The notes under the pieces are model-generated. The model saw nothing but the letters and a program-made list of their open reading frames with translations, had not been told where the DNA came from and made no database searches. A stretch of 64,000 nucleotides of DNA from an uncultured Shimia sp. (GTDB lineage: Bacteria > Pseudomonadota > Alphaproteobacteria > Rhodobacterales > Rhodobacteraceae). Position 1 is the stretch's first letter. The number at the start of each line of letters is the position of its first letter. A program made the translations under genes and the position numbers. The stretch spans positions 1-64,000 of the forward strand of contig NZ_CANMJE010000004.1 of assembly GCF_947498095.1 (NCBI RefSeq). Direction: 5' to 3'. Positions 7,493 through 26,134 of this stretch are shown piece after piece.

Positions 7493-7528
7493 TTGAGTAG
7501 TTGCTCAGAAAAATTGACTGATCGCTCA
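7493..7528. promoter_or_regulatory. candidate BetI-like operators in tetR/mttB divergent promoter
   Basis: Two symmetric elements sit in the intergenic gap. TGATCGCTCA at 7519-7528 (minus-strand reading TTTTTGAGCGATCA) differs by one base from the TGAGCGCTCA core found at 12546, 18134 and, in variant form, 26125. TTGAGTAGTTGCTCA at 7493-7507 is a looser inverted repeat with the same TGAG/CTCA half-sites. Binding by a TetR protein is inference. Confidence 0.6.
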
Positions 7529-7574
7529 AAAAGCTGCTAAGACGCAATCTGAACCAGTGACCAGAGGATGACTC

Positions 7575-9137
7575 ATGACCGCAAACCCTGCCCGTTCGCG
7601 CCGTTCCGGAGGCCGCGCTGCCCGTGTTGCAATGCGTGAATCTGTCCGCGACGACACCCGCCAAGCCGTACGTGCCGGACTTGAAGGTGGCACCTATAAT
7701 CCGCTGAGTGATCATGACCTGCGGGCAATCCACGACGCGGCGCTGGATATTTTGGCAGACGTCGGCATTGGCGACGCCACCGACGAGGTGATCGAGATTG
7801 CCACCGCTCAGGGCTGTCACCTGAATGCGCACGGGCGCCTCAGCTTTCCACGGTCGCTGGTCGAAGACCTGCTGACCAAAGCGGCACGGGAATATGTTGT
7901 CTACAGCCGCGACCCGGCCCATGCGGACGTGCATGTGGGCGGCAACAAAGTGAATTACTGCACCAGTGGCGAGGCGGTTTCGATCCTCGACTACAAAAGC
8001 CGCAGTTATCGCCCCTCTACCTTGGTTGATCTCTATGACACCGCCCGCGTGGTGGATGCATTGCCCAATATCCACCAGTTCGGTCAGACCGTGGTGCCGA
8101 CCGAAATCGCCGACCTCTACGAGCATGATATCAACGTGGTCTACGCGGTACTCGCGGGCACGACGAAGCCAGTGGAGCACACGTTCAACACAGTCGAGTC
8201 GATTCCAGCCGCGATGGAAATGTACGCGATGGTCGCCGGGTCTGAGCAAAAGTTTCGCGAGCGGCCTTTCGTGAGTTTTGGCGGTTGCCCCATCGTCTCC
8301 CCCCTGCGGTTTGCGCAAGAGAACCTTGATGTACTGGTTGCCACCAGCCGCCTTGGGTTGGTCAACGACATCGCCATCGCGCCGCAATCCGGGGCCACGG
8401 CGCCCTCGTTTCTGGCAGGTGCTTTGGTGCAGGTTGTGGCCGAAGCCCTGTCCTGTCTCTGCGTGGTGAACATGGTGCGTCCGGGCTGTCCGATGTCTTT
8501 TGCCGCGTGGCCTTTTGCAGTGGACCTGCGCACCGGAGCCTTTGCAGGCGGCTCGGCTGAGGTCGCCGTGTCAATGGCGGCGATTGCCCAGATTGGGCGG
8601 TTTTATGACCTGCCGACCACGGTTGCGGCCTCAATGTCCGACGCCAAGATGCCCGACGCACAGATGGGTTATGAAAAGGGCATCACCTCGGTCGTGGCAG
8701 GACTGGCTGGCGCCAACCGCGTGCTGGAATCGGCGGGCATGATGGCCAGCCTGATGGGCTGCTCGTTCGAGGCTCTGGTGATCGACAATGACATGCTGGG
8801 CATGGCGCAGCGCGTGGTGCGCGGCATTGAGGTCAGCGAAGAAACCCTGAGCGTTGATGTGATCAAGGCCACCGTTCTGGGCGAAGGCCATTACCTTGGC
8901 GCAGGCGACACGCTGAAGTCGATGGAGACCGAATATGTCTATCCAGAGACTGCCGACCGCACGTCGCAACAGGTCTGGATCGCGGAAGGTGCCAAGACAA
9001 TCGACGAACGCGCCCATGAAGTGGCCGGAAAGCTCTTGGCAGATCACGCCGTAAACGCGATCCCGGCCGATATCGACAAGGCCATCCGCGAAAGGTTCCC
9101 GATTAAGCTGGAGCGCTCGCGAATGCGGGTGGGATAA
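7575..9137 (+). CDS. MttB-superfamily methyltransferase, non-pyrrolysine (first copy)
   Basis: A 520-residue protein of the trimethylamine methyltransferase (MttB/COG5598) superfamily. The frame is continuous without an internal TAG, so it lacks pyrrolysine and belongs with the group whose studied members (MtgB and relatives) demethylate quaternary amines such as glycine betaine, passing the methyl group to a corrinoid protein. Recognisable segments are PLSDHDLRAIHDAALDILAD (residues about 42-61), EPVEHT-like KPVEHTFNTVES, and RFYDLPTTVAASMSDAKMPD. The first 35 residues are basic and probably disordered. No corrinoid protein gene is nearby. It is divergent from a BetI-like regulator and followed by a SAM methyltransferase. 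Confidence 0.88.
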   Translation: MTANPARSRRSGGRAARVAMRESVRDDTRQAVRAGLEGGTYNPLSDHDLRAIHDAALDILADVGIGDATDEVIEIATAQGCHLNAHGRLSFPRSLVEDLLTKAAREYVVYSRDPAHADVHVGGNKVNYCTSGEAVSILDYKSRSYRPSTLVDLYDTARVVDALPNIHQFGQTVVPTEIADLYEHDINVVYAVLAGTTKPVEHTFNTVESIPAAMEMYAMVAGSEQKFRERPFVSFGGCPIVSPLRFAQENLDVLVATSRLGLVNDIAIAPQSGATAPSFLAGALVQVVAEALSCLCVVNMVRPGCPMSFAAWPFAVDLRTGAFAGGSAEVAVSMAAIAQIGRFYDLPTTVAASMSDAKMPDAQMGYEKGITSVVAGLAGANRVLESAGMMASLMGCSFEALVIDNDMLGMAQRVVRGIEVSEETLSVDVIKATVLGEGHYLGAGDTLKSMETEYVYPETADRTSQQVWIAEGAKTIDERAHEVAGKLLADHAVNAIPADIDKAIRERFPIKLERSRMRVG

Positions 9138-9230
9138 CACCTCTCTGCAATCTTGTGCCTACCCTTGCCTTTGACGTGAGACTGCTGTTCCTTTTGGGTC
9201 AAACCCTGAAGATCGCAAGAAGGGCGCGAC

Positions 9231-10040
9231 ATGACAAAACCATCCGAGACCTCGGCCTATACCAGCACCAACCGTACGGCCTGGGAAGAAGTTGCGCCCA
9301 TTCATGCCAAGCACAATCAGGCGCGCCTCATCGAGGCGTTCAAGGATCCCGAGTTTTCCTTTCTTGACGCAACCGCCACCAAGGCCCTGACAAGCTTGGA
9401 CGTGGCGGGCAAAGACGTCGCGCAGGTGTGTTGCAACAACGGGATCGAGTTGCTGTCGGTCCAGCGGATGGGCGCGGCGCGATGTGTCGGGTTTGATGGC
9501 GCAGAAGGGTTCGTCGAACAGGGGCGCGAATTGGCTGAGGCCGCAGGCAGCGACGCCGAGTTTGTCTGCTGTGACGCCTATGACATCCCCGCAGAGTTTC
9601 ACGGTGGCTTTGATCTGGCGGTCATCACAATCGGAGTTCTGGGATGGATGCCCGACATTGATGGGTTCTTTGCATCCATCGAAAAACTGCTGAGACCCGG
9701 AGGCGCGGTGTTCATCTATGAACACCATCCCATTCTCGTGATGGTGAAACCGGGGCAAGTGGGCGACCCGTTTGAATGGGAGTTGTCCTATTTTAAAACC
9801 GACCCCTATGTGGATGCGTCAGGATTGGACTACTATGGCGGCGAGGCCTATGACGCGACACCGAACGTGTCTTTCAGCCATAAACTCTCGGACATTTTCA
9901 TGGCCGCCATCAAAGGCGGGTTGGCCGTAGAACACTTTGAGGAATTGCCAAACCACATTTCCAACACGTGGTGGAATGTCGAACACTCGGATATTGGATT
10001 GCCGATGAGCTACACGCTTGTGCTGAGAAAGGCCGGCTGA
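9231..10040 (+). CDS. class I SAM-dependent methyltransferase (first copy)
   Basis: A 269-residue Rossmann methyltransferase: the glycine-rich motif I is an unusual VAQVCCNNGIELL (residues 63-75), the acidic end of strand 2 is D89, and later come DLAVITIGVLGW and LLRPGGAVFIYEHHP. The substrate is unknown. It follows the first mttB by 93 bases in the same direction, and a second methyltransferase lies near the second mttB, so both may belong to the methylated-amine pathway. AAGAAGGG precedes the ATG. Confidence 0.85.
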   Translation: MTKPSETSAYTSTNRTAWEEVAPIHAKHNQARLIEAFKDPEFSFLDATATKALTSLDVAGKDVAQVCCNNGIELLSVQRMGAARCVGFDGAEGFVEQGRELAEAAGSDAEFVCCDAYDIPAEFHGGFDLAVITIGVLGWMPDIDGFFASIEKLLRPGGAVFIYEHHPILVMVKPGQVGDPFEWELSYFKTDPYVDASGLDYYGGEAYDATPNVSFSHKLSDIFMAAIKGGLAVEHFEELPNHISNTWWNVEHSDIGLPMSYTLVLRKAG

Positions 10041-10087
10041 CGCCTTCCCCTTCCGCTATTAAGAAGAGCCGGCCATCCTGATTACTT

Positions 10088-10885
10088 CTAGGCCATCAGC
10101 GTTCCATGTGCTTCTGGCACAAAGGTCTGGTCGCTCATCGGTGGGCGCACATAGCCACGTTGTGGCGGGCGTTCGTCCAGCACCACAGGCTCGCGCGGGA
10201 CATCTTCGTAGGGTATCAGTGACAAGAGATGGTTGATGCAGTTCAGCCGGGCATGTTTCTTGACGTCTGAATTCACCACGTACCAAGGTGCCTGTTTGAT
10301 GTCGGTATGCGAGAACATATCATCCTTGGCCTTGGAATAATCGACCCAGCGCTTGCGGCTTTCCAGATCCATCGGGCTGAGCTTCCATTGCTTGGTCGGA
10401 TCGGTCAGGCGTTTCTGGAAGCGGCGTTCCTGTTCTTCGTCACTGACCGAGAACCAGTATTTGACCAGCTGAATGCCCGACCGCACCAGCATGCGTTCAA
10501 ACTCGGGGCAACTGCGCATGAACTCTTTGTACTCTTCGTCCGTGCAGAACCCCATGACACGTTCCACGCCTGCCCGGTTGTACCAAGACCGGTCAAAAAT
10601 GATGATCTCACCGGCAGCTGGCAAATGCTCTACATAGCGTTGAAGGTACCACTGCGTTTGCTGGCGTTCCGTTGGCGCAGGCAGCGCCACCACCTGACAC
10701 ACACGCGGGTTCATGGCTTCGGTTATGCGCTTGATCGTCCCACCCTTGCCCGCCGCGTCGCGGCCTTCAAAGACGATGGCAACCCGGTGGCCGGTGTGTT
10801 TGACCCACTCCTGCAGCTTCACCAGTTCGATCTGTAGCCGCGTGAGTTCGGCCTCATAGGCCTTATTCGAAATCTTTCGGGTCAC
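10088..10885 (-). CDS. ppk2: polyphosphate kinase 2
   Basis: PPK2 family enzyme that moves phosphate between polyphosphate and nucleotides. In 265 residues it shows Walker A GRDAAGKGG (41-49), Walker B and lid FDRSWYNRAGVERVMGFC (97-114), and KYWFSVSDEEQERRFQKR. It is a one-domain PPK2; class I against class III cannot be decided here. The start is GTG at 10885 with AGGAG upstream. It sits between the two MttB genes, convergent with the methyltransferase, and no TTGAGCGCTCAA operator lies near it, so it may be a passenger in this region. Confidence 0.95.
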   Translation of the reverse strand: MTRKISNKAYEAELTRLQIELVKLQEWVKHTGHRVAIVFEGRDAAGKGGTIKRITEAMNPRVCQVVALPAPTERQQTQWYLQRYVEHLPAAGEIIIFDRSWYNRAGVERVMGFCTDEEYKEFMRSCPEFERMLVRSGIQLVKYWFSVSDEEQERRFQKRLTDPTKQWKLSPMDLESRKRWVDYSKAKDDMFSHTDIKQAPWYVVNSDVKKHARLNCINHLLSLIPYEDVPREPVVLDERPPQRGYVRPPMSDQTFVPEAHGTLMA

Positions 10886-10973
10886 AACACACTCTCCTAA
10901 CCAGACAATGCATGCAGGCTAACAAAGCTGAGGCATTCCGAGAATGCGGCAAAACGCTAGGTTTGATCAGACC

Positions 10974-12461
10974 CTATCTGAACCGCGACAGCACGTCCTT
11001 TGCCACCTGCATCACCTCATCCGCTGGTGCGGGAGGTGGTGGGGCAGCGCGGCGTTCGGCGAGATCCAGTTCGATGCGCTCAAACAGGTCCAGATCCGGC
11101 AAACCTCCATTGCTGAGGGGGGTGTTGGGTCCAAGATACCGCGAGTTCCACACCTGTGTGCGGCAATTATCGACGGTGTGCTGTTCGGCAAGGAATTGTC
11201 CTTTGGGGCCAAGGCTATCAATCAGGTCAGTGCCGATCTGATCGTCCGAAACAGTGATCCCTTCCCACATCTTGCGCAGCATCCCGGCCTGATCGTCACT
11301 GAACAACAGCGACACCTCAGAGAATGTCAGACCCTGATCGAGCGAGCCAAGGTAATCGACGGTGGCCGGGCGGTGGTAAAAGACGTTCATGGTACTGGCC
11401 GAAATTTCCCAGACCGCATCCTGATTGAAGCGCCGCGCGACCGTGCATCCCCCCGAGGCGGTGAGCGATGGAAAGCCGAGGCTCCGGCGGGCCTGAGCGG
11501 CGGCCATATCCCCCATGGTCATCTGGGAAAAGCTGCCGATGGCGCCGGTTGCAGGCTCCATAAAGAAGACGTCTGAGCCCCCCATGCAAAAACTGCCCTC
11601 TTGGACCAATTGACCCAGAACGATGGCCGCAAAATCGGTCATCAGGCAATGCACCAGACAGCCCGCAAGCGTTATCGGGGAAGACGCGCCGCCGATTGAG
11701 AGCGTGCCAACACCCACCGGGACGCCAGCGCGGACGGCTGAAATGATCTGGTCAATGTGGATGCTCGCAAAGCTGACCGGCAGCGGCGTCACAAGGTGAA
11801 AGAAATAGGGTTTGGCACGCAGGCCCTCGGCCCCACCCCGCACCGCACTGGCGATCTCGATCACGGCCTCCAGAGACTCGGGGTATTCACACAGATACTC
11901 GAGCGGTTTGGTGGTGTTCTCCATCATGCAGACGAATTCATCGATTTCGCCATGCATCGTGGAATCGGCGATATTCTTAACCGAGACACAGATCGCATCG
12001 ATGTTGGGCAGACCGTCCGAAAGACGGGTGATCGCCGCCAGATCCTCGCGGGTCGAGGGGCGCGGTTCGCCTGTTTCTTCGTCAAAGACGCCGATATTCG
12101 TCATGCCGGGCATAAAGATGGTGTGATGCGGGCTGATCGTGACGGGATTGTCGCCATTGCGATCAAAAAGCACGGTTTCCCGCGCCACGGTTTGCAGCGC
12201 CTTGCGTGTGACAGCCTCGGGGATTTTCACGATGCCGTCTTCGCCCAGCTCACATCCGACAGCGGCCAATAGATCGTCCGCCTCTGTACCCGGCTCAAAC
12301 ACAATGCCCGAGGTTGCCATCAAAGAAACCGCCGTATCGATGACCTTGGTCACCTCGGCATTCGACATGGGCCCATAGGCAGGTGTCGGTCCAAAGTGAC
12401 TGGTATTTGGGCGTTGAATTTCTGTTGGCTCAGCGACTTTACGGGCACGTCCACGGCGCAT
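10974..12461 (-). CDS. MttB-superfamily methyltransferase, non-pyrrolysine (second copy)
   Basis: A 495-residue MttB homologue, read through without an in-frame TAG. Recognisable parts are the N-terminal VIDTAVSLMATSGIVFEP (residues about 40-57), CMMENTTKPLEYLCEYPESL, SIGGASSPITLAGCLVH and the conserved C-terminal FLAEQHTVDN and WNSRYLGPNT. The last two are the segments best shared with known MttB proteins, so this copy looks closer to catalytic family members than the first. AAAGGA precedes the ATG at 12461. It is divergent from the PotB-like permease with a perfect TTGAGCGCTCAA palindrome between them. Confidence 0.9.
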   Translation of the reverse strand: MRRGRARKVAEPTEIQRPNTSHFGPTPAYGPMSNAEVTKVIDTAVSLMATSGIVFEPGTEADDLLAAVGCELGEDGIVKIPEAVTRKALQTVARETVLFDRNGDNPVTISPHHTIFMPGMTNIGVFDEETGEPRPSTREDLAAITRLSDGLPNIDAICVSVKNIADSTMHGEIDEFVCMMENTTKPLEYLCEYPESLEAVIEIASAVRGGAEGLRAKPYFFHLVTPLPVSFASIHIDQIISAVRAGVPVGVGTLSIGGASSPITLAGCLVHCLMTDFAAIVLGQLVQEGSFCMGGSDVFFMEPATGAIGSFSQMTMGDMAAAQARRSLGFPSLTASGGCTVARRFNQDAVWEISASTMNVFYHRPATVDYLGSLDQGLTFSEVSLLFSDDQAGMLRKMWEGITVSDDQIGTDLIDSLGPKGQFLAEQHTVDNCRTQVWNSRYLGPNTPLSNGGLPDLDLFERIELDLAERRAAPPPPAPADEVMQVAKDVLSRFR

Positions 12462-12543
12462 GGCGGCATCCTTTTAGACCATTTTTTAAGAATTTGTGTT
12501 CGTGACAGACTAGCCGGAAGTCCGCATTCTGGGCAATATTTTT

Positions 12544-12555
12544 TTGAGCGCTCAA
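12544..12555. promoter_or_regulatory. candidate operator TTGAGCGCTCAA (mttB2/potB divergent promoter)
   Basis: A perfect 12-base palindrome, flanked by TTT on the left and ATAAATTTG on the right, midway between mttB copy 2 and the permease operon. The same 12 bases recur exactly at 18132 and with one change at 26123. Confidence 0.75.
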
Positions 12556-12670
12556 ATAAATTTGTTGCCGGATCGAGATTCTCCTGTATTAAAAATGAAC
12601 AAAATCTTGCCCGGATGCGTCAAACGTGGCCCGATGCAAAGATCAAAAACAGCAAGAGGATCCCCCGACG

Positions 12671-13537
12671 ATGGGCGTGACACTCGATAAAGAAGCCCGG
12701 CAGGGCCTGACCCTGCTCAGCCCGACAGCGCTCTATGCCCTGTTGATGCTGGCCGCACCGCTGGCGATGGTGGTGACGTTCAGCTTCTGGACACAGAACT
12801 ATCTGGACATCGACACCACGCTGACGTTGGACAATTACCGCGAAGCCTGGAGCAAGCCGATCTATCAGGTTCTGATGATGCGCTCGCTGCGAATCTCGTT
12901 GATGGTGACGGTTGTCACAGTGCTCTTGGCCTTTCCGATCGCCTATTACCTGTCGTTCCATGTCAAGAAACGCAAAGCGCTCTGGCTGTTCCTGATCACC
13001 GTGCCATTCTGGACGAGCTACCTGCTGCGGGTGTTCCTATGGAAGGTTATTCTGGGGTTCAACGGCGTGTTGAACACTGCCCTGATGCAAGTCGGGCTGA
13101 TTGATGAGCCGCTGACGTTTATCCTTTATAACTCTAATGCGGTGGTGCTGACGCTGGCCCATGCCTGGGCGCCCTTTGCGATCCTGCCGATCTTTGTTGC
13201 GCTGGAAAAAATCGACCGTTCGCTTCTGGAGGCTGCCGAAGATCTGGGCGATGGCCCGGTGCGCCGGTTCTTTCGGATCACCCTGCCACTGGCAATGCCG
13301 GGTGTCATCGCCTCCACGCTGATCGTGCTGATCCCGACCGTGGGTGATTTCATCACGCCCCGTCTGGTGGGTGGCACCGATGGTCTGATGATCGCCAACA
13401 TGATCCAGATCCAATTCGGCAAAGCCAACAACGCCCCCCTTGGCGCGGCTTTGGCGATCTCGTCGATGGTGATCGTCGCGGCAATCAGTCTTGTGATTTA
13501 CCTTGTAGGCAAGAAAATGGGGGGGCGCACGGAATGA
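12671..13537 (+). CDS. ABC transporter permease, PotB-like
   Basis: Inner-membrane permease of about 288 residues with six predicted helices and the EAA loop (EKIDRSLLEAAEDLGDGP, then FFRITLPLAMPGV) typical of polyamine/opine/quaternary-amine importers. First gene of potB-potC-potA-type operon; the stop overlaps the next ATG by four bases. The ATG at 12671 follows an AGAGGA; the frame is open 45 bases further upstream but the operator lies there. The substrate is probably a small cation or betaine, by context. Confidence 0.9.
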   Translation: MGVTLDKEARQGLTLLSPTALYALLMLAAPLAMVVTFSFWTQNYLDIDTTLTLDNYREAWSKPIYQVLMMRSLRISLMVTVVTVLLAFPIAYYLSFHVKKRKALWLFLITVPFWTSYLLRVFLWKVILGFNGVLNTALMQVGLIDEPLTFILYNSNAVVLTLAHAWAPFAILPIFVALEKIDRSLLEAAEDLGDGPVRRFFRITLPLAMPGVIASTLIVLIPTVGDFITPRLVGGTDGLMIANMIQIQFGKANNAPLGAALAISSMVIVAAISLVIYLVGKKMGGRTE

Positions 13538-14364
13538 CCCGGCTTGGCAAATACCTCTCTGCCCGGTGGCTCGCGGTTTATGCCGTGGTCTACATGCTGT
13601 TTCTTTACGCACCCGTGGTCCTGTTGCCACTGTTTGCGTTCAACGATGCGACCATCATCTCGTTTCCTCTTACAGGCTTCACGACGCAGTGGTTCACAGT
13701 TCTCTGGGAGACCGAGGCGCTGCATGCCGCCGTTCGCAACAGCGCGATTGTGGCGATCTCCACCGCAGTTCTGAGTACGACGCTGGGCGCCTGCGCCGCA
13801 CGCGCGGCCGCGCGCTACAAGTTTCCGGGCAAGCGCCCTGTGATGGGGTTCATCATGCTGCCGCTGGTGCTGCCCGAGATCATCGTTGCGGTCTCACTTC
13901 TGGTGTTGCTGATGCAGCTTGGGATGTCGCTGTCGCTTTGGACGGTGATTTTGGGCCACATCCTGATCTGCACGCCCTTTTCTATCGCCATCCTGTCCAG
14001 CGCGTTTCAAGGTTTGGACAACAGCCTCGAAGAGGCCTCGTTCGATCTGGGTGAAACCCGCTGGGGCACCTTCCGCCGGGTGATCTTGCCGCTGGTGATG
14101 CCCGGCGTGGTCTCAAGCCTGTTGATCTGTTTCACCATCTCGCTGGATGAATTCATCATCGCGTTTTTCCTGACCGGCACAGATGTCACCCTGCCTGTCT
14201 ATATCTGGAGCCAATTGCGCTTCCCTACGAAATTGCCCTCGGTCATGGCCTTGGGAACAATCCTGCTCGCCTTGTCCGTCATTCTGCTGATCATGGCGGA
14301 ATGGTTCCGCCGTCGATCGGCCAAGAAGCAAGGCATCGAAGCATCTGCCGGAGGATTCATGTAA
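13534..14364 (+). CDS. ABC transporter permease, PotC-like
   Basis: Second permease, 276 residues, six helices, EAA loop ALDNSL-type: FQGLDNSLEEASFDLGETRW followed by FRRVILPLVMPGV. The FTISLDEFIIAFFLTG stretch is characteristic of PotC-like partners. It overlaps the PotB-like gene by ATGA and abuts the ATPase gene (TAA then ATG), so the three are translated as one unit. Confidence 0.92.
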   Translation: MTRLGKYLSARWLAVYAVVYMLFLYAPVVLLPLFAFNDATIISFPLTGFTTQWFTVLWETEALHAAVRNSAIVAISTAVLSTTLGACAARAAARYKFPGKRPVMGFIMLPLVLPEIIVAVSLLVLLMQLGMSLSLWTVILGHILICTPFSIAILSSAFQGLDNSLEEASFDLGETRWGTFRRVILPLVMPGVVSSLLICFTISLDEFIIAFFLTGTDVTLPVYIWSQLRFPTKLPSVMALGTILLALSVILLIMAEWFRRRSAKKQGIEASAGGFM

Positions 14365-15468
14365 ATGACCGCGACCGACACCAACGACATCATCGTTCTG
14401 AGCGATGTGACCAAAACCTTCGGCACATTTCAGGCGCTGAAGGGCATCAATGCGACAATCCGCGAAGGCGAGTTCTTTTCGCTTTTGGGGCCTTCGGGCT
14501 GCGGCAAGACCACGCTGTTGCGCATGATCGCGGGCTTTGATGAGCCAACGACCGGAGCGATTGAGATCGACGACAAACCAATGGCAGGAATTTCTGCCAA
14601 CAAGCGCCCGACGAACATGGTGTTTCAGTCCTACGCGATTTTCCCGCATCTCAGCGTTGCTGAAAACGTGGGCTACGGTCTGAAAACCCGCAAGATGCCA
14701 AAGACTGAGATCGCGGCAGAGGTGGACAAAGCGCTGGAGATGGTTGACCTGCGAGGTCTTGGGAACCGCAGCGCGCATGAACTGTCAGGTGGCCAACGCC
14801 AGCGTGTGGCCCTAGCCCGTGCTTTGGTCATGAAGCCCAAGGTGATCCTGCTGGATGAACCACTGTCTGCGCTCGACAAGAAACTGCGCGACCAGATGCA
14901 GGTTGAACTGCGCTCGTTGCAGCAATCCCTTGGCATCACGTTTATCCTCGTCACCCACGACCAGGAAGAAGCGCTGATCATGTCGGACCGCATCGCGGTG
15001 ATGTTTGAGGGTGAGATTGCCCAGTTGGACTCGCCTGAAGGTCTCTACCGTCGTCCACGCACCAAGCGCGTGGCCTCGTTCATTGGGGTAATGAACTTTC
15101 TGTCGGCCAAGCTGACCCGCGAAGACGCAGAGACACTCACGATCCAAATTGATGCGCTGGGAGAGATCACAGTACCGCGCGACATCGCGCCCGAAGGGTT
15201 GACCCCTTCCGAGGTGGACGCCATTGGCATCCGACCCGAAATGCTGACGGTTCTGATGGACGACACCGACACCGCCGAGCGAACCGTTGAAGGGTCAATC
15301 ACCGGCACCTCCTATTACGGCGATATGACTTACTACGAGGTGAAACTGCCCGGTGACGGTGATCCCGTGACCATTTCCATGCGCAATACTGCAGGGCGTT
15401 CTGTCCTGCCAGCCGGCAGCAAAGTTTCTGTAGGTTGGGGTGCCGAGTCTATCGTACTGTTCGAATAA
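14365..15468 (+). CDS. ABC transporter ATP-binding protein, PotA-like
   Basis: A 367-residue ATPase with Walker A GPSGCGKTT (42-50), Q-loop VFQSYAIFPH, signature LSGGQRQRVA (near 140), Walker B VILLDEPLSALD (near 158-170), H-loop THDQEEAL and a C-terminal TOBE regulatory domain (from about 285: GSITGTSYYGDMTYYEV). It powers the PotB/PotC-like channel. The binding protein is encoded on the opposite strand at 16968. Confidence 0.94.
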   Translation: MTATDTNDIIVLSDVTKTFGTFQALKGINATIREGEFFSLLGPSGCGKTTLLRMIAGFDEPTTGAIEIDDKPMAGISANKRPTNMVFQSYAIFPHLSVAENVGYGLKTRKMPKTEIAAEVDKALEMVDLRGLGNRSAHELSGGQRQRVALARALVMKPKVILLDEPLSALDKKLRDQMQVELRSLQQSLGITFILVTHDQEEALIMSDRIAVMFEGEIAQLDSPEGLYRRPRTKRVASFIGVMNFLSAKLTREDAETLTIQIDALGEITVPRDIAPEGLTPSEVDAIGIRPEMLTVLMDDTDTAERTVEGSITGTSYYGDMTYYEVKLPGDGDPVTISMRNTAGRSVLPAGSKVSVGWGAESIVLFE

Positions 15469-16859: not shown

Positions 16860-16910
16860 CGCCCGACCCTAGCCCCGGCACCCCACTTCGCCAAGGTCTG
16901 AGCAGGCAAC

Positions 16911-18032: not shown

Positions 18033-18131
18033 TTTCTTCTCCCTGTTGTACGGCAAGGACCCGTCACACAAGGTAAACTGGTCGCCATCCCCGAAAAACT
18101 AAAAGGGATATGGGATTGACTCAAGGTTTAA

Positions 18132-18143
18132 TTGAGCGCTCAA
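18132..18143. promoter_or_regulatory. candidate operator TTGAGCGCTCAA (potD/flavoprotein divergent promoter)
   Basis: Perfect 12-base palindrome followed by ATAAAAATTG, 38 bases before the flavoprotein start codon and about 100 bases before the binding-protein start. Identical to the copy at 12544 including the trailing ATAAA. Confidence 0.75.
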
Positions 18144-18180
18144 ATAAAAATTGATGCGAATAGGAGCATATTGAGAGAAA

Positions 18181-20208
18181 ATGCGCGATCCAAGGCACGA
18201 TATTCTGTTTGAGCCTCTGAAAATTGGGCCCGTCACAACAAAAAACCGATTCTATCAGGTGCCGCATTGCACAGGCATGGGATGGAGACGCCCTCAGACT
18301 CTGGCTGCCATGCGTGGGGTCAAGGCCGAAGGCGGCTGGGGCGTGGTCAACACCGAGTTCTGTTCGGTGCACCCCACTTCGGACAACGACGCCTTTCCTT
18401 ACGCAGCCCTGTGGGACGACGACGACATCCGCGCCAATGCGCTGATGACCGAGGCCGTGCATGAACATGGCGCCTTGGCAGGTGTCGAACTGTGGCTTGG
18501 TGGCGGTATGGTGGCCAATCTGGGCACCCGCATTCCGGCTTATGGGTTGCGGAACCGCCCCCAGACCGACAGTGGCGTGGTCAATCCCGGTCAGACCCGC
18601 AAGATGGACAAATCCGACATCCGCGAGGTGCGCCGTTGGCACCGTGATGCGGCCAAACGGGCTGTCGCAGCCGGGTTCGACATTGTCTATGTCTATGCGA
18701 CCCACGGCTATCTTTTGTCCGAGTTCATGGACCCGGCCGTGAACACCCGCAGCGATGAATACGGCGGCTCCTTGGAAAACCGTACCCGACTGGTACGTGA
18801 ATTGATCGAGGAAACCCGCGAAGCGGTGGGCGACAAGGTGGCGGTGGCCACGCGGTTCAGCGTCGATTTGAATGATACCGAGACCTATGACGCTTTTGCC
18901 TTGATGGCCGACATGCCGGACCTTTGGGACCTGACCGTGCCGGATTACGGCGTTGAGATGGGCGCCAGCCGCTTCGTGAAAGAGGCGTCGTTTGTCGACA
19001 GCATCTCTCACGCCAAATCACTGACCTCGAAACCCGTTGTGGCCGTGGGTCGGTTCACGTCACCGGACACGATGGCACAGGTGATCCGCGCCGGGCATCA
19101 GGACTTGATCGGCGCCGCCCGCCCTTCAATCGCGGACCCGTTTCTGCCGGTGAAGATTTCCGAAGGACGCTCTGAAGACATTCGCGAATGTATCGGCTGC
19201 AACATCTGTTACGCACATGACTCGATGGGCGTCCCGCTGCGCTGCACACAAAATGCAACGATGGGCGAAGAATGGCGTTTGGGCTGGCATCCAGAACGCA
19301 CAGGGCGCGCAGATGCGTCGGAAAAAGTGCTTGTGGTCGGGGCTGGTCCCGCCGGGCTTGAGGCGGCACGGGTGCTCGGGGAACGCGGGCATCAGGTGAT
19401 GCTGGCTGAAGCGGAACGCACCCTTGGGGGTCGCGTGACCCGCGAGGCAAAGCTCCCCGGGCTGATCGAATGGGGCCGCGTGCGCGATTGGCGCGTGGGA
19501 CAGATTGAAAAGCTCGACACCGTTGAGGTGTTCCCCGAAAGCCGCCTCACCGCCGAAGACATCCCGGATCTGGGCGTCGATCATGTGCTGATTGCAACGG
19601 GATCGAAATGGGCCGCTGACACGATTGGCCGGCATTCGGCCACTGGCCTGACCGAGGCCGCTCCGGGCATGATCGCAAGCGCCGAAGCCGTGCTGAACGG
19701 TGAGGATATCAACGCCGATCACGTGGTAATCTATGACGACGACCACTACTACCTCGGCTCGGTTATGGCCCTGCAATTGCGCAAGGCGGGCAAGCGCGTG
19801 ACATTGGTGACACCCGCCGGCAAGCCCTGCGAGTTTGGGGTGTTCACGACCGAGATCTACAGCTCAAACGCGGCACTGGTCGAGGCGGGTGTTGAGATTG
19901 TCACCAACCAGATGATCACCTCGGTTACAGCGGGATCGGCACAGATGGAATGCACCTTTGCCGGACGCCCGAGCGCCCTTGCTTGCGACCTGGTGATCCC
20001 GGTCTGTCGACGGCTGCCTGTTCTGGACCTGTTTGACGGGCTGCAAGCCGAGAATCCTTCTGGCCTCAAGTCCCTCGCCCGCATAGGCGATGCCGAGGCG
20101 CCGAACACGATTGCCGCAGCGGTCCATGCCGGGTACCGCGCTGGAATGGATTTGGGTCGCGAGGTCGATCTTGCCAAGGTCTATGGTCGCAGAGAACATA
20201 CGGTCTGA
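18181..20208 (+). CDS. iron-sulfur flavoprotein, trimethylamine dehydrogenase / DgcA-like demethylase
   Basis: A 675-residue old-yellow-enzyme fusion: FMN TIM barrel (1-330), a 4Fe-4S motif with C337, C340, C343 and C355, and an FAD/ADP-binding part from about 384 (VVGAGPAGLEAARVLGERG). The Y172-x-x-H175 pair (VYATHGY) matches the Tyr169/His172 pair of trimethylamine dehydrogenase. Family members oxidatively demethylate tri- or dimethylamine, dimethylglycine or N-methylproline, or reduce dienoyl-CoA. The catalytic pair and the setting favour N-demethylation. Monocistronic, ending before a bidirectional terminator. Confidence 0.88.
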   Translation: MRDPRHDILFEPLKIGPVTTKNRFYQVPHCTGMGWRRPQTLAAMRGVKAEGGWGVVNTEFCSVHPTSDNDAFPYAALWDDDDIRANALMTEAVHEHGALAGVELWLGGGMVANLGTRIPAYGLRNRPQTDSGVVNPGQTRKMDKSDIREVRRWHRDAAKRAVAAGFDIVYVYATHGYLLSEFMDPAVNTRSDEYGGSLENRTRLVRELIEETREAVGDKVAVATRFSVDLNDTETYDAFALMADMPDLWDLTVPDYGVEMGASRFVKEASFVDSISHAKSLTSKPVVAVGRFTSPDTMAQVIRAGHQDLIGAARPSIADPFLPVKISEGRSEDIRECIGCNICYAHDSMGVPLRCTQNATMGEEWRLGWHPERTGRADASEKVLVVGAGPAGLEAARVLGERGHQVMLAEAERTLGGRVTREAKLPGLIEWGRVRDWRVGQIEKLDTVEVFPESRLTAEDIPDLGVDHVLIATGSKWAADTIGRHSATGLTEAAPGMIASAEAVLNGEDINADHVVIYDDDHYYLGSVMALQLRKAGKRVTLVTPAGKPCEFGVFTTEIYSSNAALVEAGVEIVTNQMITSVTAGSAQMECTFAGRPSALACDLVIPVCRRLPVLDLFDGLQAENPSGLKSLARIGDAEAPNTIAAAVHAGYRAGMDLGREVDLAKVYGRREHTV

Positions 20209-20240: not shown

Positions 20241-20279
20241 GAAGAAAGCCCCCGACGCACCGCGCTGGGGGCTTTCTTC
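20241..20279. terminator. bidirectional terminator between convergent genes
   Basis: Inverted repeat GAAGAAAGCCCCC / GGGGGCTTTCTTC around a 13-base loop. The CTTTCTTCTTG after the stem serves the plus strand, and the mirrored run serves the aminotransferase on the minus strand, whose stop is 23 bases away. Confidence 0.85.
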
Positions 20280-20301
20280 TTGCTTTGTCGGGCATAATGC
20301 G

Positions 20302-21675
20302 TCAGCCGTTGACGTCTTTTTGAACCTCTGCCAGTGCGTCTTCGATAATGTCGAACATCTCGTCTATCTGCTCAAGCGTGATGATCAGAGGCGGTGAGAA
20401 CACCGCCATGTTGATCAGCGGTCGTACGATCAGGCCGCGCGCTTCGCACGCCTCATCAATCTTGGCGCCCAGTGTGCGCTCCGCCTCAAGGTCTTCGGCC
20501 TTGCCCTCGATGCAGCCCAAAAGCCCCATACCACGTGCATCGCCAACAATATCGAATTTTTCCAACGCCTTAAGGCGTTTTTGAAAATGCGGACTGACCT
20601 CGCGCACATGTTCCAGAATGCCTTCGCTTTCAAAGATTTCGATGTTCTTCAAAGCTGCAACGCAACACACGGGATGACCTGAATAAGTGTAACCGTTGGT
20701 GTAGCTTGACGGCTCTCCAAGGTTGCTGATTGCCTCCAGCACGTGATCGGCAATGATGCAGGCCCCTAGCGGCAGATAACCAGAGGTCAGGCCCTTGGCG
20801 CAGGTGATCATGTCGGGCACGATGTCGAACAGGTCTTCGGAAGCGAACCAATGGCCAAGGCGGCCAAAGCCCGTCACAACCTCATCTGAAATATACAGTA
20901 TATCGTTGGCCTTGCAGACTTCCCACGTGCGCTTGTGATAGCCAGGCGCAGGCACGATCACACCACCGGAGGACAAGACCGGTTCGGCGATAAAAGCCCC
21001 GATCTTATCGGCGCCAATCGTGGCAATGGCATTCTCAAGGTCAGCGACTTTCTCGTCACAAAACGCTTCGACGCTCTGTCCTTCGGCACGGCGATAGGGG
21101 TTCACGTCGGGCAGGAAATGCACCATGTGCGAGGCGTGGTCAAAGTGGGATTTATCCCGCTCCTTACCGGTGACCGAATGCGCCAGATAGGTCGATCCGT
21201 GATAGCCCTTTTCGCGGGCAAGGATCATCTTTTTCTCAGGCATGCCGCGACGATTGAAGTAGTACATCATCGTGCGCAATGCGGTATCCACAGCCGTGGA
21301 GCCTCCGGTGGTAAAGAACACGTTGTTCAAATCACCGGGCGCCATGTCGGCGATCTTTTTGGCAAGCACTGCGGAGGGTTCGGTCGCATTGCTGAAGGGT
21401 GAGGTGTAGGGCAGTTTCATCACCTGCGCGGCGATGGCATCTGCCATGTCCTTGCGGCCATAACCGATCTGGGTGCACCACATCCCTGCCGGGCCATCAA
21501 TGAACTTCTTGCCCGAGGCATCCCACATGTAAATGCCCTCGGCGGTGTCGACCATCATGTTGTCATAGCCGCGCCAGTCGTCCATCGCCGCCCAGGGGTG
21601 GAGCTGATGCACCCGGTCCCACTCGTGAAGCGTTTCGAGGCTGGGTTCATTCGATAGGTTTGTCATCTCAGTCAT
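20302..21675 (-). CDS. class III aminotransferase (omega-amino acid type)
   Basis: PLP-dependent transaminase of 457 residues. The PLP lysine is about K294 in TCAKGLTSGYLPLGA, the acidic partner is in YISDEVVTGFGRLG, and the N-terminal W of GMWCTQIGYG is typical of omega-amino acid:pyruvate enzymes. The ATG at 21675 has AAGGA upstream; a second ATG three codons later is possible. Last gene of a minus-strand operon starting at the second FAD oxidoreductase. It would transfer the amino group of a demethylated amine or beta/gamma-amino acid; substrate not known. Confidence 0.9.
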   Translation of the reverse strand: MTEMTNLSNEPSLETLHEWDRVHQLHPWAAMDDWRGYDNMMVDTAEGIYMWDASGKKFIDGPAGMWCTQIGYGRKDMADAIAAQVMKLPYTSPFSNATEPSAVLAKKIADMAPGDLNNVFFTTGGSTAVDTALRTMMYYFNRRGMPEKKMILAREKGYHGSTYLAHSVTGKERDKSHFDHASHMVHFLPDVNPYRRAEGQSVEAFCDEKVADLENAIATIGADKIGAFIAEPVLSSGGVIVPAPGYHKRTWEVCKANDILYISDEVVTGFGRLGHWFASEDLFDIVPDMITCAKGLTSGYLPLGACIIADHVLEAISNLGEPSSYTNGYTYSGHPVCCVAALKNIEIFESEGILEHVREVSPHFQKRLKALEKFDIVGDARGMGLLGCIEGKAEDLEAERTLGAKIDEACEARGLIVRPLINMAVFSPPLIITLEQIDEMFDIIEDALAEVQKDVNG

Positions 21676-21695
21676 GTCGCATTTCCTTAGTTGGA

Positions 21696-22883
21696 TCAGA
21701 ACGACTTGGGCGGCGTGGCCCGCGATCTGGCGTTTTGGAAAAATGGTTTGTCGACCACGGTCAGCGGCACGATGCGCTTGTCCCATTGGCCTTCTTCGTT
21801 GACGTAAATCTCGACCCACAGGTCGTCCTGAATGGCCTTGCCATAGGGTGCCTTAAACTCGGCCAGCGCGATGTTCTGCTTCATCGTCGGCGACCAGACC
21901 CCCGAAGTGACATGGCCAACCTCTTTCTTTTTGCGGTGATAGATCAGCGAGCCATCAGCTGGTTTGAACCCGCCAATGTCGATCTTGACGAGGTGGTGCT
22001 TCATCCCATCTTCACGCTGCTGCAACAGCGCGCGCCGGCCGTTGAAATGGCCCTTTTCAAAATGCACGAGCTTTTCAAAGCCTAATTCCAGCGGGCTGCG
22101 GCCACGATGCAAGCGCATCGCTGTGTGCACTGGCTGGAAATCTACACCGGCGGCGATAAATCCCGCCTCGATCCGCACCATGTTCAGCGCCTCGGCACCG
22201 ATGGCGCGCAAGCCCCAGTTGCCGCCCGCCGCCCAAAGACGATCCCAAAGCGCGGCGATGTCATCCCATGCGGTCCAAAGCTCATAGCCCAGATCGCCGG
22301 TAAAGCCAGTGCGAGACACCCAAAGACCGGGTTCAACCTCACGCAGGTCAAAAGGTTTCATGTCTTCGACCGCACCAAGGCCCGCCTCTTTCAGGAGCGA
22401 GAAGGTGGTAGGCCCCTGCAAGGAAACCCCTGCAATCGTGTGACTTTCATCAATGATGTCAGCCTCAAAGCCCCAGGCCGAGTCCAAAAGCCAGCTGTAC
22501 ATCGTCTCCTGACAGCACAGCAGAAAGTCAGTCTCGGTGTATCGGAAAATAGTGCCGTCATCGATCACCATGCCCTCTTCATCACACCAGAGCGCATAGC
22601 CCACACGACCATCGCGCAGTTTGGCCACGTCGCGGGTCACAAGACGGTTCAACACCTTCAGCGCATCAGGTCCGGAGATGCGGTATTTGTGCATGGGCGA
22701 GATATCGAACAGCGTCGATTGGTTGCGGATCGCAAAGTATTCAAACTCGACCGTGTCCAGCACCAGAGGCGAGATGTAACCGGCCCAGTTGGCCCAGCTT
22801 TTGGTGGTGCTGATGGCCTCCATACGCTCATAAAGCGGTGTTGGAATGGCCCCGACCGGAACAGCGGTTGGCGTCTTGCTCAT
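21696..22883 (-). CDS. GcvT-like aminomethyltransferase
   Basis: A 395-residue folate-binding protein of the GcvT/DmdA/sarcosine-oxidase-tail family. Typical signs are ISPMHKYRISGPDALKVLNR (about 61-80), GVSLQGPTTFSLL, SRTGFTGDLGYELW, ALNMVRIEAGFI, and HVTSGVWSPTMKQNIALA at the C-terminus. Such proteins move a methyl or methylene group from an amine to tetrahydrofolate. In this setting it could receive methyl groups released by the oxidoreductases or MttB proteins. It overlaps the gene upstream by four bases. True GcvT is normally beside gcvH/gcvP, which are absent, so this is a catabolic paralogue. Confidence 0.85.
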   Translation of the reverse strand: MSKTPTAVPVGAIPTPLYERMEAISTTKSWANWAGYISPLVLDTVEFEYFAIRNQSTLFDISPMHKYRISGPDALKVLNRLVTRDVAKLRDGRVGYALWCDEEGMVIDDGTIFRYTETDFLLCCQETMYSWLLDSAWGFEADIIDESHTIAGVSLQGPTTFSLLKEAGLGAVEDMKPFDLREVEPGLWVSRTGFTGDLGYELWTAWDDIAALWDRLWAAGGNWGLRAIGAEALNMVRIEAGFIAAGVDFQPVHTAMRLHRGRSPLELGFEKLVHFEKGHFNGRRALLQQREDGMKHHLVKIDIGGFKPADGSLIYHRKKKEVGHVTSGVWSPTMKQNIALAEFKAPYGKAIQDDLWVEIYVNEEGQWDKRIVPLTVVDKPFFQNARSRATPPKSF

Positions 22884-24415
22884 GACAACACCCCGTCTTT
22901 CAGAAGTTGCAGGGCGCTGTTGCGTCCCGGAAGGCCGGTCACGTCACCGCCCGGATGGGCCGCCGCGCCACAGAGGTAAAGTCCGCCAATGGCAAAGCGG
23001 TAATGCGCCATCCCGTTGACCGGACGCACGGTGAGGATCTGATCGACCCCCATTTCCGCGTGGTGCCAATGGCCGCCCGGCGCACCAGTTCGCGCCTCGA
23101 TATCCGCAGGCGTTAGCAAATCGGGGCTTTCGACCAAGGCCGCAAGCCCCGGCATATGTGTCTCAAGCTGGGCTACGACAGTGTTGATCACGTGCCGGCG
23201 CTTTGCATCATCCCAGCCGCCTTCAGGTGTGTGAGGGACGTGCTGGATGTTGGCCGACAAGATGTGACGCCCATCCGAAGCCACCTCTACGTCCGACAGC
23301 GTCGGGATCACGGCTTCGATAACCGGCGCCGTGGGCAGCTCATTATATTTCACCGGGTTGAACGAGCGTTCGACCGCCGCCGCCGAAGGTGCAATCAGAA
23401 AGCGGGATTTCATTTGATCCCAGCTGAGGCCTTTGATCGAAGGCGCATCCTTCAACGTCAACGTCAGCTTGGCCACTGACCCCTTGCACCGCATATGGCG
23501 CATGCGCCGCGCGGCTTCGACGTCAAAATGTTCAATTCCGGCCATCTCCATCGTGGCCTTGGGAGCCGCTGACGATAAAACGGCGCGGGTGTTGATGACT
23601 GTCCCGTCTTCAAGTTCGACCCCGTTGACGGTATCGTTCTCTATCAAAACCCGGGTCACACCCTGCCCAGCGCGCAGATCGACGCCTGCCTTACGTGCTG
23701 CGTCCTCAAACGCGCGGGCGACGGCAATCATGCCACCTTTGGGCAGGCGTACGTCACCGCCCTGCCCCAGCCGGTACATCAGGTTGAACACCGTGCCGGG
23801 CGAGCGCGGGCCAACGAAATTGCCACGCACGGCATCGGCACAAAGTGCGCCAGCCAATGGACCATCGGGCATTTCGTCCAGCACAAGATCATAGGCGTTG
23901 GTCAGGATGACGCGCAGAAACTCGTTCATGTCCTTTTTGCCAAGGCGTTTGAGATCGAGGCCCATTTTCGCCAGACCTGCCAATTCGCCCAGTGTGGCAA
24001 GGCTGGTCAGCCCTCCGTCCAACTTGGGAGGGGTCTTGGTCGACAACTGCCCCAGAACGCCCGCGAACTTTTTCAAACGCCGGATCATCTCGGCATAAGC
24101 GGCGGCGTCAGGATGGGCCGCGCCATCGGCAAATCGCACAGTGTCGCCGCTGATCTCAACATGATTGCCATCTTCGGCCAGCGAAATGGTCGAGAGCGGT
24201 TTGCCCTCGTTCAACGCGCCAAGGCCAAGCTCGCGCGCGACCTTGGGGTGCAGATTGTACAAAAGATGCGCGACCTCACGTGCCATCCCACCAAAGGCCT
24301 CCGCCTTTTCGATCACGCAGACGGATTTGCCTTTTTTGGCAAGCGTTGCGGCGGCGGTCAGGCCGTTGTGCCCTCCGCCGATCACCACGACGTCATAGGT
24401 TGCTGAAACGCTCAT
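22880..24415 (-). CDS. FAD-dependent oxidoreductase, phytoene desaturase-like (first)
   Basis: A 511-residue protein with N-terminal FAD motif VVVIGGGHNGLTAAATLAKK (about 9-28) and C-terminal LYLCGAAAHPGGDVTGLPG. This GHNG-type, non-carotenoid group includes amine oxidases and retinol-like saturases; no carotenoid genes are near. It overlaps gcvT-like by ATGA and follows a sister gene by ten bases, so the two oxidoreductases are co-expressed, possibly as a heterodimer. Substrate unknown. Confidence 0.82.
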   Translation of the reverse strand: MSVSATYDVVVIGGGHNGLTAAATLAKKGKSVCVIEKAEAFGGMAREVAHLLYNLHPKVARELGLGALNEGKPLSTISLAEDGNHVEISGDTVRFADGAAHPDAAAYAEMIRRLKKFAGVLGQLSTKTPPKLDGGLTSLATLGELAGLAKMGLDLKRLGKKDMNEFLRVILTNAYDLVLDEMPDGPLAGALCADAVRGNFVGPRSPGTVFNLMYRLGQGGDVRLPKGGMIAVARAFEDAARKAGVDLRAGQGVTRVLIENDTVNGVELEDGTVINTRAVLSSAAPKATMEMAGIEHFDVEAARRMRHMRCKGSVAKLTLTLKDAPSIKGLSWDQMKSRFLIAPSAAAVERSFNPVKYNELPTAPVIEAVIPTLSDVEVASDGRHILSANIQHVPHTPEGGWDDAKRRHVINTVVAQLETHMPGLAALVESPDLLTPADIEARTGAPGGHWHHAEMGVDQILTVRPVNGMAHYRFAIGGLYLCGAAAHPGGDVTGLPGRNSALQLLKDGVLS

Positions 24416-24425
24416 GATAGCCCCC

Positions 24426-26063
24426 TTACGCCGCGTGCTTGGGCATCAAGTCGCCCTTGCCGATATTGCGCAGAATTTCCCGCGCCGCGTTGGCACCTGG
24501 GGCGGCCATCACACCGCCACCGGGATGGGCCGATGAGCCGACCAGATACATGCCATCAATAGGCGTGCGATACTGGGCATAGCCCGGCACCGGACGGTTA
24601 AACAGCAGCTGATCAAAGGTCAGTTCACCTTGGAAGATGTTGCCCTCGGTCAGGCCCACTTCCTTCTCGATATCCCAAGGCGTGCGAATTTCGGCATGCA
24701 ACACGTGTTTGCGAATGTCCGGCATCGCAACCTCGATCTTGTCAAAGACACAATCGGCAAAGGCTTTGCGGGTCTCATCGTTCCAGTTCTCGCCAGAGCG
24801 CACGCCGTTCACCTCAAGATCATAAGGCGCGTATTGCACAAAGACGGTCATCATGTGTTTGCCCGGAGGCGCCAGAGTCGGATCGATCTGACTGGGGATC
24901 AGCATGTCAAAATAGGGATCCTTGGACCAGTGGCCCTCTTTCCAGTCGTCATAGGCGCGCTCAAGCTCATTCAGCGATTGCGAACAGTGCATGTCGCCGC
25001 GCAAGAAAGGCGACCCCTTTGGCGCAGCCGGGAATTCCGGCAATGAATCCAATGCGATATTCAGCTTACCCGACGAGCCACGGATCTTGAAGCGTTTCAC
25101 CGCGCGGGTGAAATCTTCGGGCAGATGCTTGGTCTCGGTATGATTGAGGAAGGTGCGTTTGACATCCATGTTCGAGGCAACGATAGGCGCCTGATAGGTG
25201 TCGCCATTCTCCAAAGCCACGCCAACCGTCTTGCCGTCTTTTACGAGAAACTGATCGACGCCAGAGCCCGTGACAATGGTGCCGCCTGCCTCTTCAAAAC
25301 AAGCGCCCAGCGCGTTGGCAATCGCGCCCATCCCGCCACGCGCAAAACCCCAGGCCCCAATCGCGCCATCCACGTCACCCATATAGTGGTGCAACAGGAC
25401 ATAAGCCGTGCCGGGCGAATACACTCCAAGCCCTGTCCCGATGATCCCGGCGCCGGCGATGTGCGCCTTGATCAGGTCGTTCTCAAAATGCTCATCCAAA
25501 AAGTCGCCGATGGACATGGTCCAGAAACGCAGGGTTTCCCCCAGTTCCTTGGCACCCAACCCGTGGGCTTTTTTCAGAAGGAACAGCAATTCGTTCAGGT
25601 CTCGTGGGCGCAATGACGACGGATCCGGCGCGTTGCGCAACAGGAAAGGACGGATGAAACGACACTGACGGATCACCGTCTGGCTGAACCGCTCATAAGC
25701 ATCCACATCGGCCGGGCTGTGGCGGAACATCTCGCGGCGCAGGGCGTCATGGTCCGAGTAATAGGCAAAATAGTCGCCATCCGGGGTAAAGCTGGCGCCG
25801 CCCTCATAGGGGATCACTTGCAGGCCAAAGCGCGGCAACTCCAGATCACGCACGATTTCACGGCGCAAAAGCGAGCAGACATAAGAGCAATTTGAGTAGG
25901 TCCAGCCATCATGAAGCGAACGGCTGACCGACGCCCCTCCAATCCAATCGTTCTTTTCAACAATCAGGACTTTCAGGCCTGCTTTGGCGAGGTAGCAGGC
26001 CGTCGTCAGACCGTTATGCCCTGCCCCGGCAATGATCGCATCATATGTGTCGTGTTGGCCCAT
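24426..26063 (-). CDS. FAD-dependent oxidoreductase, phytoene desaturase-like (second)
   Basis: A 545-residue paralogue of the downstream gene: FAD motif AIIAGAGHNGLTTACYLAKA (about 9-28) and C-terminal MYLVGSSAHPGGGVMAAPG. First gene of the operon 26063 to 20302, whose promoter lies in the gap to the second BetI-like regulator and holds a TTGAGCGCTTAA palindrome. Two such genes in tandem, with aminotransferase and GcvT-like partners, suggest a multi-step oxidation of an N-methylated compound. The exact reaction is not recognisable. Confidence 0.82.
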   Translation of the reverse strand: MGQHDTYDAIIAGAGHNGLTTACYLAKAGLKVLIVEKNDWIGGASVSRSLHDGWTYSNCSYVCSLLRREIVRDLELPRFGLQVIPYEGGASFTPDGDYFAYYSDHDALRREMFRHSPADVDAYERFSQTVIRQCRFIRPFLLRNAPDPSSLRPRDLNELLFLLKKAHGLGAKELGETLRFWTMSIGDFLDEHFENDLIKAHIAGAGIIGTGLGVYSPGTAYVLLHHYMGDVDGAIGAWGFARGGMGAIANALGACFEEAGGTIVTGSGVDQFLVKDGKTVGVALENGDTYQAPIVASNMDVKRTFLNHTETKHLPEDFTRAVKRFKIRGSSGKLNIALDSLPEFPAAPKGSPFLRGDMHCSQSLNELERAYDDWKEGHWSKDPYFDMLIPSQIDPTLAPPGKHMMTVFVQYAPYDLEVNGVRSGENWNDETRKAFADCVFDKIEVAMPDIRKHVLHAEIRTPWDIEKEVGLTEGNIFQGELTFDQLLFNRPVPGYAQYRTPIDGMYLVGSSAHPGGGVMAAPGANAAREILRNIGKGDLMPKHAA

Positions 26064-26122
26064 GAGACTCCCCTTGTGTCACCTGACTGTAGAGGAGTGC
26101 GTAAATCGGGTCCATAATTTTT

Positions 26123-26134
26123 TTGAGCGCTTAA
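26123..26134. promoter_or_regulatory. candidate operator TTGAGCGCTTAA (oxidoreductase operon/tetR2 promoter)
   Basis: One base different from the perfect palindrome at 12544 and 18132, with the same flanks (TTTTT before, ACAAATTTTT after). Lies 60 bases upstream of the oxidoreductase start and 75 bases upstream of the TetR start. Confidence 0.68.

Follow-up and report, generated by a model that had tools for sequence, protein, structure and literature searches.

A predicted 22-bp operator of a BetI-like TetR regulator and its regulon in a probable amine-demethylation cluster of an uncultured Shimia sp.

BetI-like regulators and the Shimia locus

A BetI-like TetR-family repressor with a palindromic operator is a known kind of regulator, and the 12-bp layout discussed here is already known as well. 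In the report on Ruegeria pomeroyi DSS-3 (PMC12442346), the box of the repressor BetI1, TTGACGCGTCAA (ATTGACG and CGTCAAT), has the layout TTGA-N4-TCAA, was footprinted over a -35 box, and serves the choline and choline-O-sulfate genes; the same text describes two BetI paralogues with separate targets in that one genome. Glycine betaine demethylation by the MttB-family (PF06253) demethylase MtgB has been reported for aerobic marine roseobacters (PMC12478193).

Here we analysed a stretch of 64,000 nucleotides (the window) from an uncultured Shimia sp. (assembly GCF_947498095.1, contig NZ_CANMJE010000004.1, positions 1 to 64,000), in which a 12-bp palindrome, TTGAGCGCTCAA (the 12-mer), recurs between divergent genes of a methylated-amine cluster. 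A sequence-only reading of this DNA had placed one type of site at every divergent promoter of the cluster, and had proposed a single regulon of about 20 kb in which both BetI-like TetR proteins encoded there, TetR1 and TetR2, read the same or similar sites. In our analysis, the 12-mer is very likely the operator of TetR2, as judged from its sequence and its distribution among genomes. To the overall model, which combines a 22-bp TetR2 operator, a TetR2 regulon, a separate TetR1 unit and an amine-demethylating cluster, we assign a probability of about 0.8.

Like BetI1, TetR2 is a BetI-like TetR-family protein; its predicted operator shows the TTGA-N4-TCAA layout of the published box, and it shares its genome with a paralogue. 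The inner bases differ (CGCG in the BetI1 box, GCGC in the TetR2 operator), and TetR2 is predicted to serve a cluster of crtO, gcvT, trimethylamine dehydrogenase-like and MttB genes. TetR2 (118.2 bits) falls below the cut-off of the BetI equivalog model TIGR03384 (201.3 bits), as does TetR1 (103.1 bits); with a second BetI equivalog model, NF001978 (cut-off 118 bits), TetR2 at 118.0 is level with the cut-off as printed, and TetR1 at 94.4 is below it. A profile of 17 TetR2 orthologues matched solved TetR-family chains, the best being 3e7q (E 7e-20, positions 20-212). Compared with the MtgB roseobacters, the window shares an MttB-family demethylase, yet holds two MttB paralogues together with an amine dehydrogenase and a transporter, and no corrinoid protein among its scanned proteins. 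No report of the operator TTGAGCGCTCAA or of its regulon was found in the literature, literal text search included, most subscription papers lying outside the search.

The palindrome and its co-occurrence with TetR2

The window scan located the 12-mer where the sequence-only reading had seen it: exact copies lie at 12544-12555 and 18132-18143, a one-change copy, TTGAGCGCTTAA, at 26123-26134, and a two-change copy at 7518-7529, and the A/T flanks are as described there. According to our own gene calls, these places fall one each in the four divergent gaps that the stretch from 5.8 to 26.9 kb contains, namely TetR1//mttB1, mttB2//potB, the gap between the genes of a substrate-binding protein (SBP) and the flavoprotein OYE (SBP//OYE), and crtO1//TetR2. 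The next divergent gap, gabT//29789, contains no copy, as had been claimed for the gabTD promoter. The features central to the argument are as follows.

12539-12560, between mttB2 and potB: predicted 22-bp TetR2 operator (core TTGAGCGCTCAA, 12544-12555), matrix score 40.1
18127-18148, between SBP and OYE: predicted TetR2 operator (core 18132-18143), matrix score 39.8
26118-26139, between crtO1 and tetR2: predicted TetR2 operator (core TTGAGCGCTTAA, 26123-26134), matrix score 35.9
26209-26841, plus strand: TetR2, BetI-like TetR-family regulator, 210 amino acids (aa)

The scores come from a 22-bp matrix built from 44 distinct 22-mers outside the window. The maximum over 100 Markov-simulated windows was 14.7, and the next-best match in the real window, the element at 7513 with a score of 12.8, falls inside the simulated range. 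In the whole genome (4.08 Mb), the 12-mer was found at three exact and 14 one-mismatch places, versus four for the reversed pattern. When the A/T arms were added to the 12-mer (TTNNTTGAGCGCTCAANNAA, at most one mismatch; the extended pattern), four places were left, three of them the sites of the cluster and the fourth on contig C9. The last of these, the third exact copy in the genome (205117), was rejected as a regulon member, being inside a 303-aa open reading frame (ORF) with a phage-integrase domain and having no right arm.

The palindrome was next followed across genomes. In a scan of named GTDB genomes, of which the best 80 of 410 TetR2 loci were kept, 79 loci could be assessed (L211 has no DNA upstream of tetR2), and in 76 of them the 250 bp upstream of tetR2 contain the 12-mer with 0-2 mismatches. 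Counted by best upstream match, 56 loci had no mismatch, 16 had one, four had two and three had five; by comparison, 122 of 4000 random 250-bp stretches drawn from these loci, real sites included, reached two mismatches or fewer. Among 149 family genomes, TetR2 homologues (at least 46% identity) were found in 16, the Shimia genome itself included, and the extended pattern in 17, that is, in all 16 genomes with TetR2 and in one of the 133 others (Fisher p 1e-20). In the order sample of 292 genomes, the pattern was found in 15 and TetR2 (E up to 1e-40) in the same 15, while none of the 277 others had either (p 2e-25). The reversed pattern occurred in two genomes of each sample. In the 25 genus genomes, TetR2 is present in two, the Shimia genome itself and G152 (74%), and these two are the only ones with the extended pattern at one mismatch or fewer.

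The co-occurrence supports the earlier suggestion that a BetI-like TetR reads the palindrome, and points to TetR2 as the likely reader. Co-occurrence alone cannot separate a regulator from a tightly linked gene, and another protein could in principle read the motif, TetR2 being merely its genomic neighbour. However, the site is kept at the tetR2 promoter even where the neighbouring operon is different (amt is directly divergent in L153, L162, L173 and others), and 29 of the 30 sites found in the order sample are no more than 21 kb away from tetR2, which makes another reader improbable. We thus take the palindrome to be real, conserved and specific, and, from sequence, to mark a predicted local regulon confined to the cluster in its own genome. 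It stands above background across that genome and is conserved in orthologous clusters, the two points on which the sequence-only reading had staked itself.

Several observations weigh against this reading and the model built on it. At two mismatches or fewer, the window is not enriched in the 12-mer (4 found versus 3.79 expected; 57 of 100 shuffles reach 4). Since plain counting gives no more than chance, the argument is built on how well the sites match, where they lie and how they are conserved. The site is missing from three of the assessable TetR2 loci (in L213 only its left half remains, and L219 and L224 have none), and one genome, G128, has one imperfect place of the extended pattern without TetR2. 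At two mismatches or fewer, the extended pattern appears in 15 of the 25 genus genomes, only two of them with TetR2, so that the loose motif is not specific. The arms of the pattern were chosen after the 80 loci had been seen, and four genomes (G000, G031, G062 and G092) are positive in both the family and the order samples. The evidence on TetR1, given below, comes from three genomes only, and TetR2 is taken for a repressor rather than an activator by analogy with its family. The absence of enrichment in simple counts is also what would be expected from chance similarity of AT-flanked GC palindromes; with the same promoters conserved and the co-occurrence with TetR2 seen in two genome samples, this explanation has next to no probability.

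Regarding the shape of the operator, the conserved unit extends over 22 bp, TTTRWTTGAGCGCTCAAWYAAA, as derived from 73 tetR-proximal and 31 other sites (a set that includes the window and L125), and the third and fourth positions outside the core are nearly invariant on both sides. Such a unit could hold a single dimer on the 12-bp core or, alternatively, two overlapping 16-bp sites bound by two dimers in the manner of QacR. A long palindrome with room for two overlapping dimer sites is a feature in common with QacR-type regulators, and TetR-family repressors that occupy overlapping palindromes as two dimers are known (PMC6018408). The arms are conserved and put TYAA-like tetramers at the same 16-bp spacing as in the TetR1 sites, and R. 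pomeroyi BetI2 has two palindromes sharing a flank (PMC12442346). On the other hand, the outer tetramers are mostly ATAA or AAAA, not TCAA, and the sequence test for this layout was not significant: compensation of a broken inner half-site by an outer TCAA gave a raw p of 0.013 (230 arms, 115 sites) and p = 0.73 on 53 distinct 22-mers, and is not claimed. This test left out the sites of L205 and L207 in the class 'other' (without A/T arms), the one within crtO2, those near tetR that had more than two mismatches, and sites with truncated flanks. Binding by two dimers is a serious possibility, though somewhat less likely than not.

Two short motifs accompany the operator. GTAAAG, perhaps a promoter element, stands 5-10 bases from the core, towards crtO1, at most of the 80 tetR2 loci; it is absent at 26118 in the window, and none of the other operator classes showed it. 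Sites of the SBP//OYE class often have a TTGACW hexamer immediately to the left of the operator, which would place a repressor bound there on the DNA downstream of a -35 box; in the window the hexamer is TTGACT (18116-18121), possibly the -35 box of OYE.

TetR1 and the tandem 16-bp element

The fourth gap holds an element of a different build, next to the gene of the second regulator.

6831-7466, minus strand: TetR1, sister BetI-like regulator, 211 aa from a GTG (an ATG lies a few codons downstream)
7493-7508, TetR1//mttB1 promoter: first 16-bp TetR1-type site, TTGAGTAGTTGCTCAG
7514-7529, TetR1//mttB1 promoter: second 16-bp TetR1-type site, TTGACTGATCGCTCAA, 21 bp from the first

TetR1 and TetR2 are 36% identical. 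In a tree of 45 rows, each forms a single clade, and the pair is set apart from 25 other BetI-like rows (97/90); by this tree the two are sister clades. TetR1 was also found in G152 (L125, 61%) and G129 (L120, 54-55%), the only other genomes where it was detected, and in both, two 16-bp sites are found at a distance of 22 bp. In the order sample (E 1e-40), TetR1 was found in its own genome only, no separate TetR1 search of the genus having been made. A matrix built from the four external sites of G152 and G129 picked out the window pair as its two best matches in the window. Taken singly, one of the window sites (16.6) does not rise above the simulated maximum of 17.0, but the sum of the pair (36.1) exceeds that of all 30 simulated windows (maximum 20.7).

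The sequence-only reading had described 7493-7528 as a related copy of the 12-mer plus a looser repeat. As a degenerate 12-mer, the element was rejected, its TetR2-matrix score of 12.8 being below the simulated maximum; it fits a tandem pair of 16-bp sites, TTGA-N8-TCAA, spanning 7493-7529, and most likely belongs to TetR1. One type of site at all four promoters is thus not what we find: the TetR1//mttB1 pair goes with TetR1 in three genomes, and the 12-mer goes with TetR2. A 16-bp YTGA-N8-TCAR element (at least 5 of 8 pairs), e.g. TTGAATGATCATTCAA, is located upstream of 12 of the 25 other BetI-like rows and not of the remaining 13 (a count made with no control run), from which TetR1 seems to follow a common 16-bp layout.

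A single regulon, with both proteins acting at all four promoters, would agree with their sister relation, with the half-site TTGAGC in both types of site, and with weak TetR1-matrix scores at 18128 and 26123 (13.1 and 12.4). However, these scores are below the mean simulated maximum (13.8), just as the TetR2 matrix does not rise above simulation at 7513. Moreover, G129, which has TetR1 and no TetR2, carries the 16-bp pair and no extended 12-mer genome-wide, and the TetR2 genomes of the family sample outside Shimia contain no TetR1 at 50% identity or more. A shared regulon is for these reasons unlikely. Of the earlier proposal of similar sites, a half-site in common probably holds: both proteins probably read TTGAGC, at a different spacing. 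In place of the single 20-kb regulon, two adjacent ones seem to be present, a TetR1 unit next to a TetR2 unit.

The G129 locus (L120, 7673-8329 and 9884-10516) has the same enzymes with a TetR1-type regulator at the crtO1 promoter; another TetR, with a near-perfect palindrome of its own, ATGAATGAACGTTCATTCAG, is found at the aminotransferase promoter.

Cluster genes, probable alternative demethylases and the model

The genes of the cluster, with their likely regulators, are listed below.

7575-9137, plus strand: mttB1, MttB-family methyltransferase (PF06253, E 1e-105), likely TetR1 target
9231-10040, plus strand: MT1, S-adenosylmethionine (SAM)-methyltransferase-like, downstream of mttB1
10974-12461, minus strand: mttB2, MttB-family protein (PF06253, E 7e-51), likely TetR2 target
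12626-15468, plus strand: potB, potC and potA-like ATP-binding cassette (ABC) transporter, likely TetR2 target
15490-16269, plus strand: MT2, SAM-methyltransferase-like, behind potA
16968-18071, minus strand: SBP, polyamine-type substrate-binding protein, likely TetR2 target
18181-20208, plus strand: OYE, trimethylamine/histamine-dehydrogenase-like flavoprotein, likely TetR2 target
20302-21819, minus strand: class III aminotransferase (PF00202 from residue 85; start probably downstream of the mechanical ORF start)
21696-22883, minus strand: gcvT-like folate-dependent methyl acceptor
22880-24415, minus strand: crtO2, FAD oxidoreductase
24426-26063, minus strand: crtO1, FAD oxidoreductase, first gene of the operon divergent from tetR2

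Both MttB proteins exceed the gathering threshold of the superfamily model PF06253 (25 bits; mttB1 353.8, mttB2 173.3) and fall below the cut-off of TIGR02369, the pyrrolysine trimethylamine methyltransferase (525 bits; 393.9 and 206.3); their reading frames are open, with no in-frame stop. The only match in the genome to the corrinoid-binding domain PF02607 is on another contig, well away from the cluster, within an open frame of 235 aa (L225, G000:C2:573492-573713), and is a possible partner of the MttB proteins. OYE resembles the trimethylamine/histamine dehydrogenase group, its best solved relatives, over most of its length (3k30, residues 6-657, E 2e-186; 1djn, E 3e-151). The mttB1 and mttB2 units are separated by a gene for polyphosphate kinase 2 (10088-10885), which has no separate operator, and an ORF of 235 aa between MT2 and SBP (16194-16901) has no Pfam or NCBIfam match.

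In the window and many relatives, TetR2 sites lie beside crtO1-crtO2-gcvT-aminotransferase, SBP, OYE and potBCA; the cluster is also present in the record of Shimia gijangensis DSM 100564 (L145). Out of 116 classified sites, 11 fell into the class 'other' and one lies inside crtO2. For seven of these 11 the neighbouring genes were tested, and a Rieske oxygenase gene adjoins all seven; an eighth (L161) adjoins one by similarity, L191 precedes an SBP-like gene, and L205 and L207 are the two without A/T arms. In addition, at four of the sites classed with potB, the gene that follows is a type-B Rieske gene leading into potBCA. In a survey of 28 TetR2 genomes, with G129 searched as the 29th, the type-B Rieske gene (at least 58% identity) was found in 15, and in 12 of these the operator is 40-82 bp from the match edge on the upstream side; in the other three (G141, G277 and G365) no operator was listed upstream at one mismatch or fewer. 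The genome of the window has no type-B relative at E 1e-30. A gene for mttB2 (at least 65%) is present in four of the 28 (G000, G152, G085 and G417). In G417 (C1:3588144-3590908), mttB2 and the type-B Rieske gene diverge around one operator copy at 3589665, an arrangement that looks like the form from which mttB2-only and Rieske-only clusters could derive. Mutual exclusion of the two enzymes had been considered, since no locus had both in a locus survey in which most loci end 10 kb from tetR2 and 38 of 84 rows have none of the three enzymes; G417 does have both, and the claim was reduced to alternatives under one operator.

Among the Rieske proteins that stand under this operator in other genomes, the closest solved structure to the type-B protein is carnitine monooxygenase and that to type A is the 3vca/4qup demethylase group (E 1e-39 and 8e-49), although these relatives are distant. 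The placement of mttB2 and Rieske genes under one operator points to quaternary-amine demethylation as the likely chemistry. Together with the relatives of OYE and the published demethylation by MttB proteins, the Rieske relatives point to stepwise demethylation of an imported quaternary amine, ending in a primary amine for the aminotransferase.

In the model, whose DNA binding, repression, effector and substrate we infer, the 22-bp palindrome would be the operator of TetR2 as a BetI-like TetR-family repressor. TetR2 would repress its own gene and the divergent crtO1-crtO2-gcvT-aminotransferase operon, as well as SBP, OYE, mttB2 and the potBCA-like transporter, by occupying the promoters of these genes. 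It would come off the DNA when it binds a small amine, probably the quaternary amine that serves as substrate or a product formed early in the pathway. TetR1 would control mttB1-MT1 and itself through the two tandem 16-bp sites, which use the same half-site 4 bp further apart, and the cluster would import and then stepwise demethylate a quaternary or tertiary amine. Tentatively, and at less than even odds, we further suggest that spacing separates the sister regulons (inverted TTGAGC half-sites abut in the TetR2 operator, and those of TetR1 have 4 bp between them and come as a tandem), and that the TetR2 operator is a fixed socket into which unrelated demethylases are exchanged, the cobalamin-type MttB and the O2-dependent Rieske enzymes.

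If correct, the model would supply an uncharacterised pathway of amine demethylation, spread over many marine alphaproteobacteria, with an operator that can be tested and a regulon with defined limits, and the motif with its arms could be used to find the pathway in genomes. One operator before both MttB and Rieske genes suggests that the two enzymes perform the same first step on the same substrate, which would narrow the search for that substrate. The TetR1/TetR2 pair, for its part, may serve as a natural test case for the way in which sister repressors keep to different targets.

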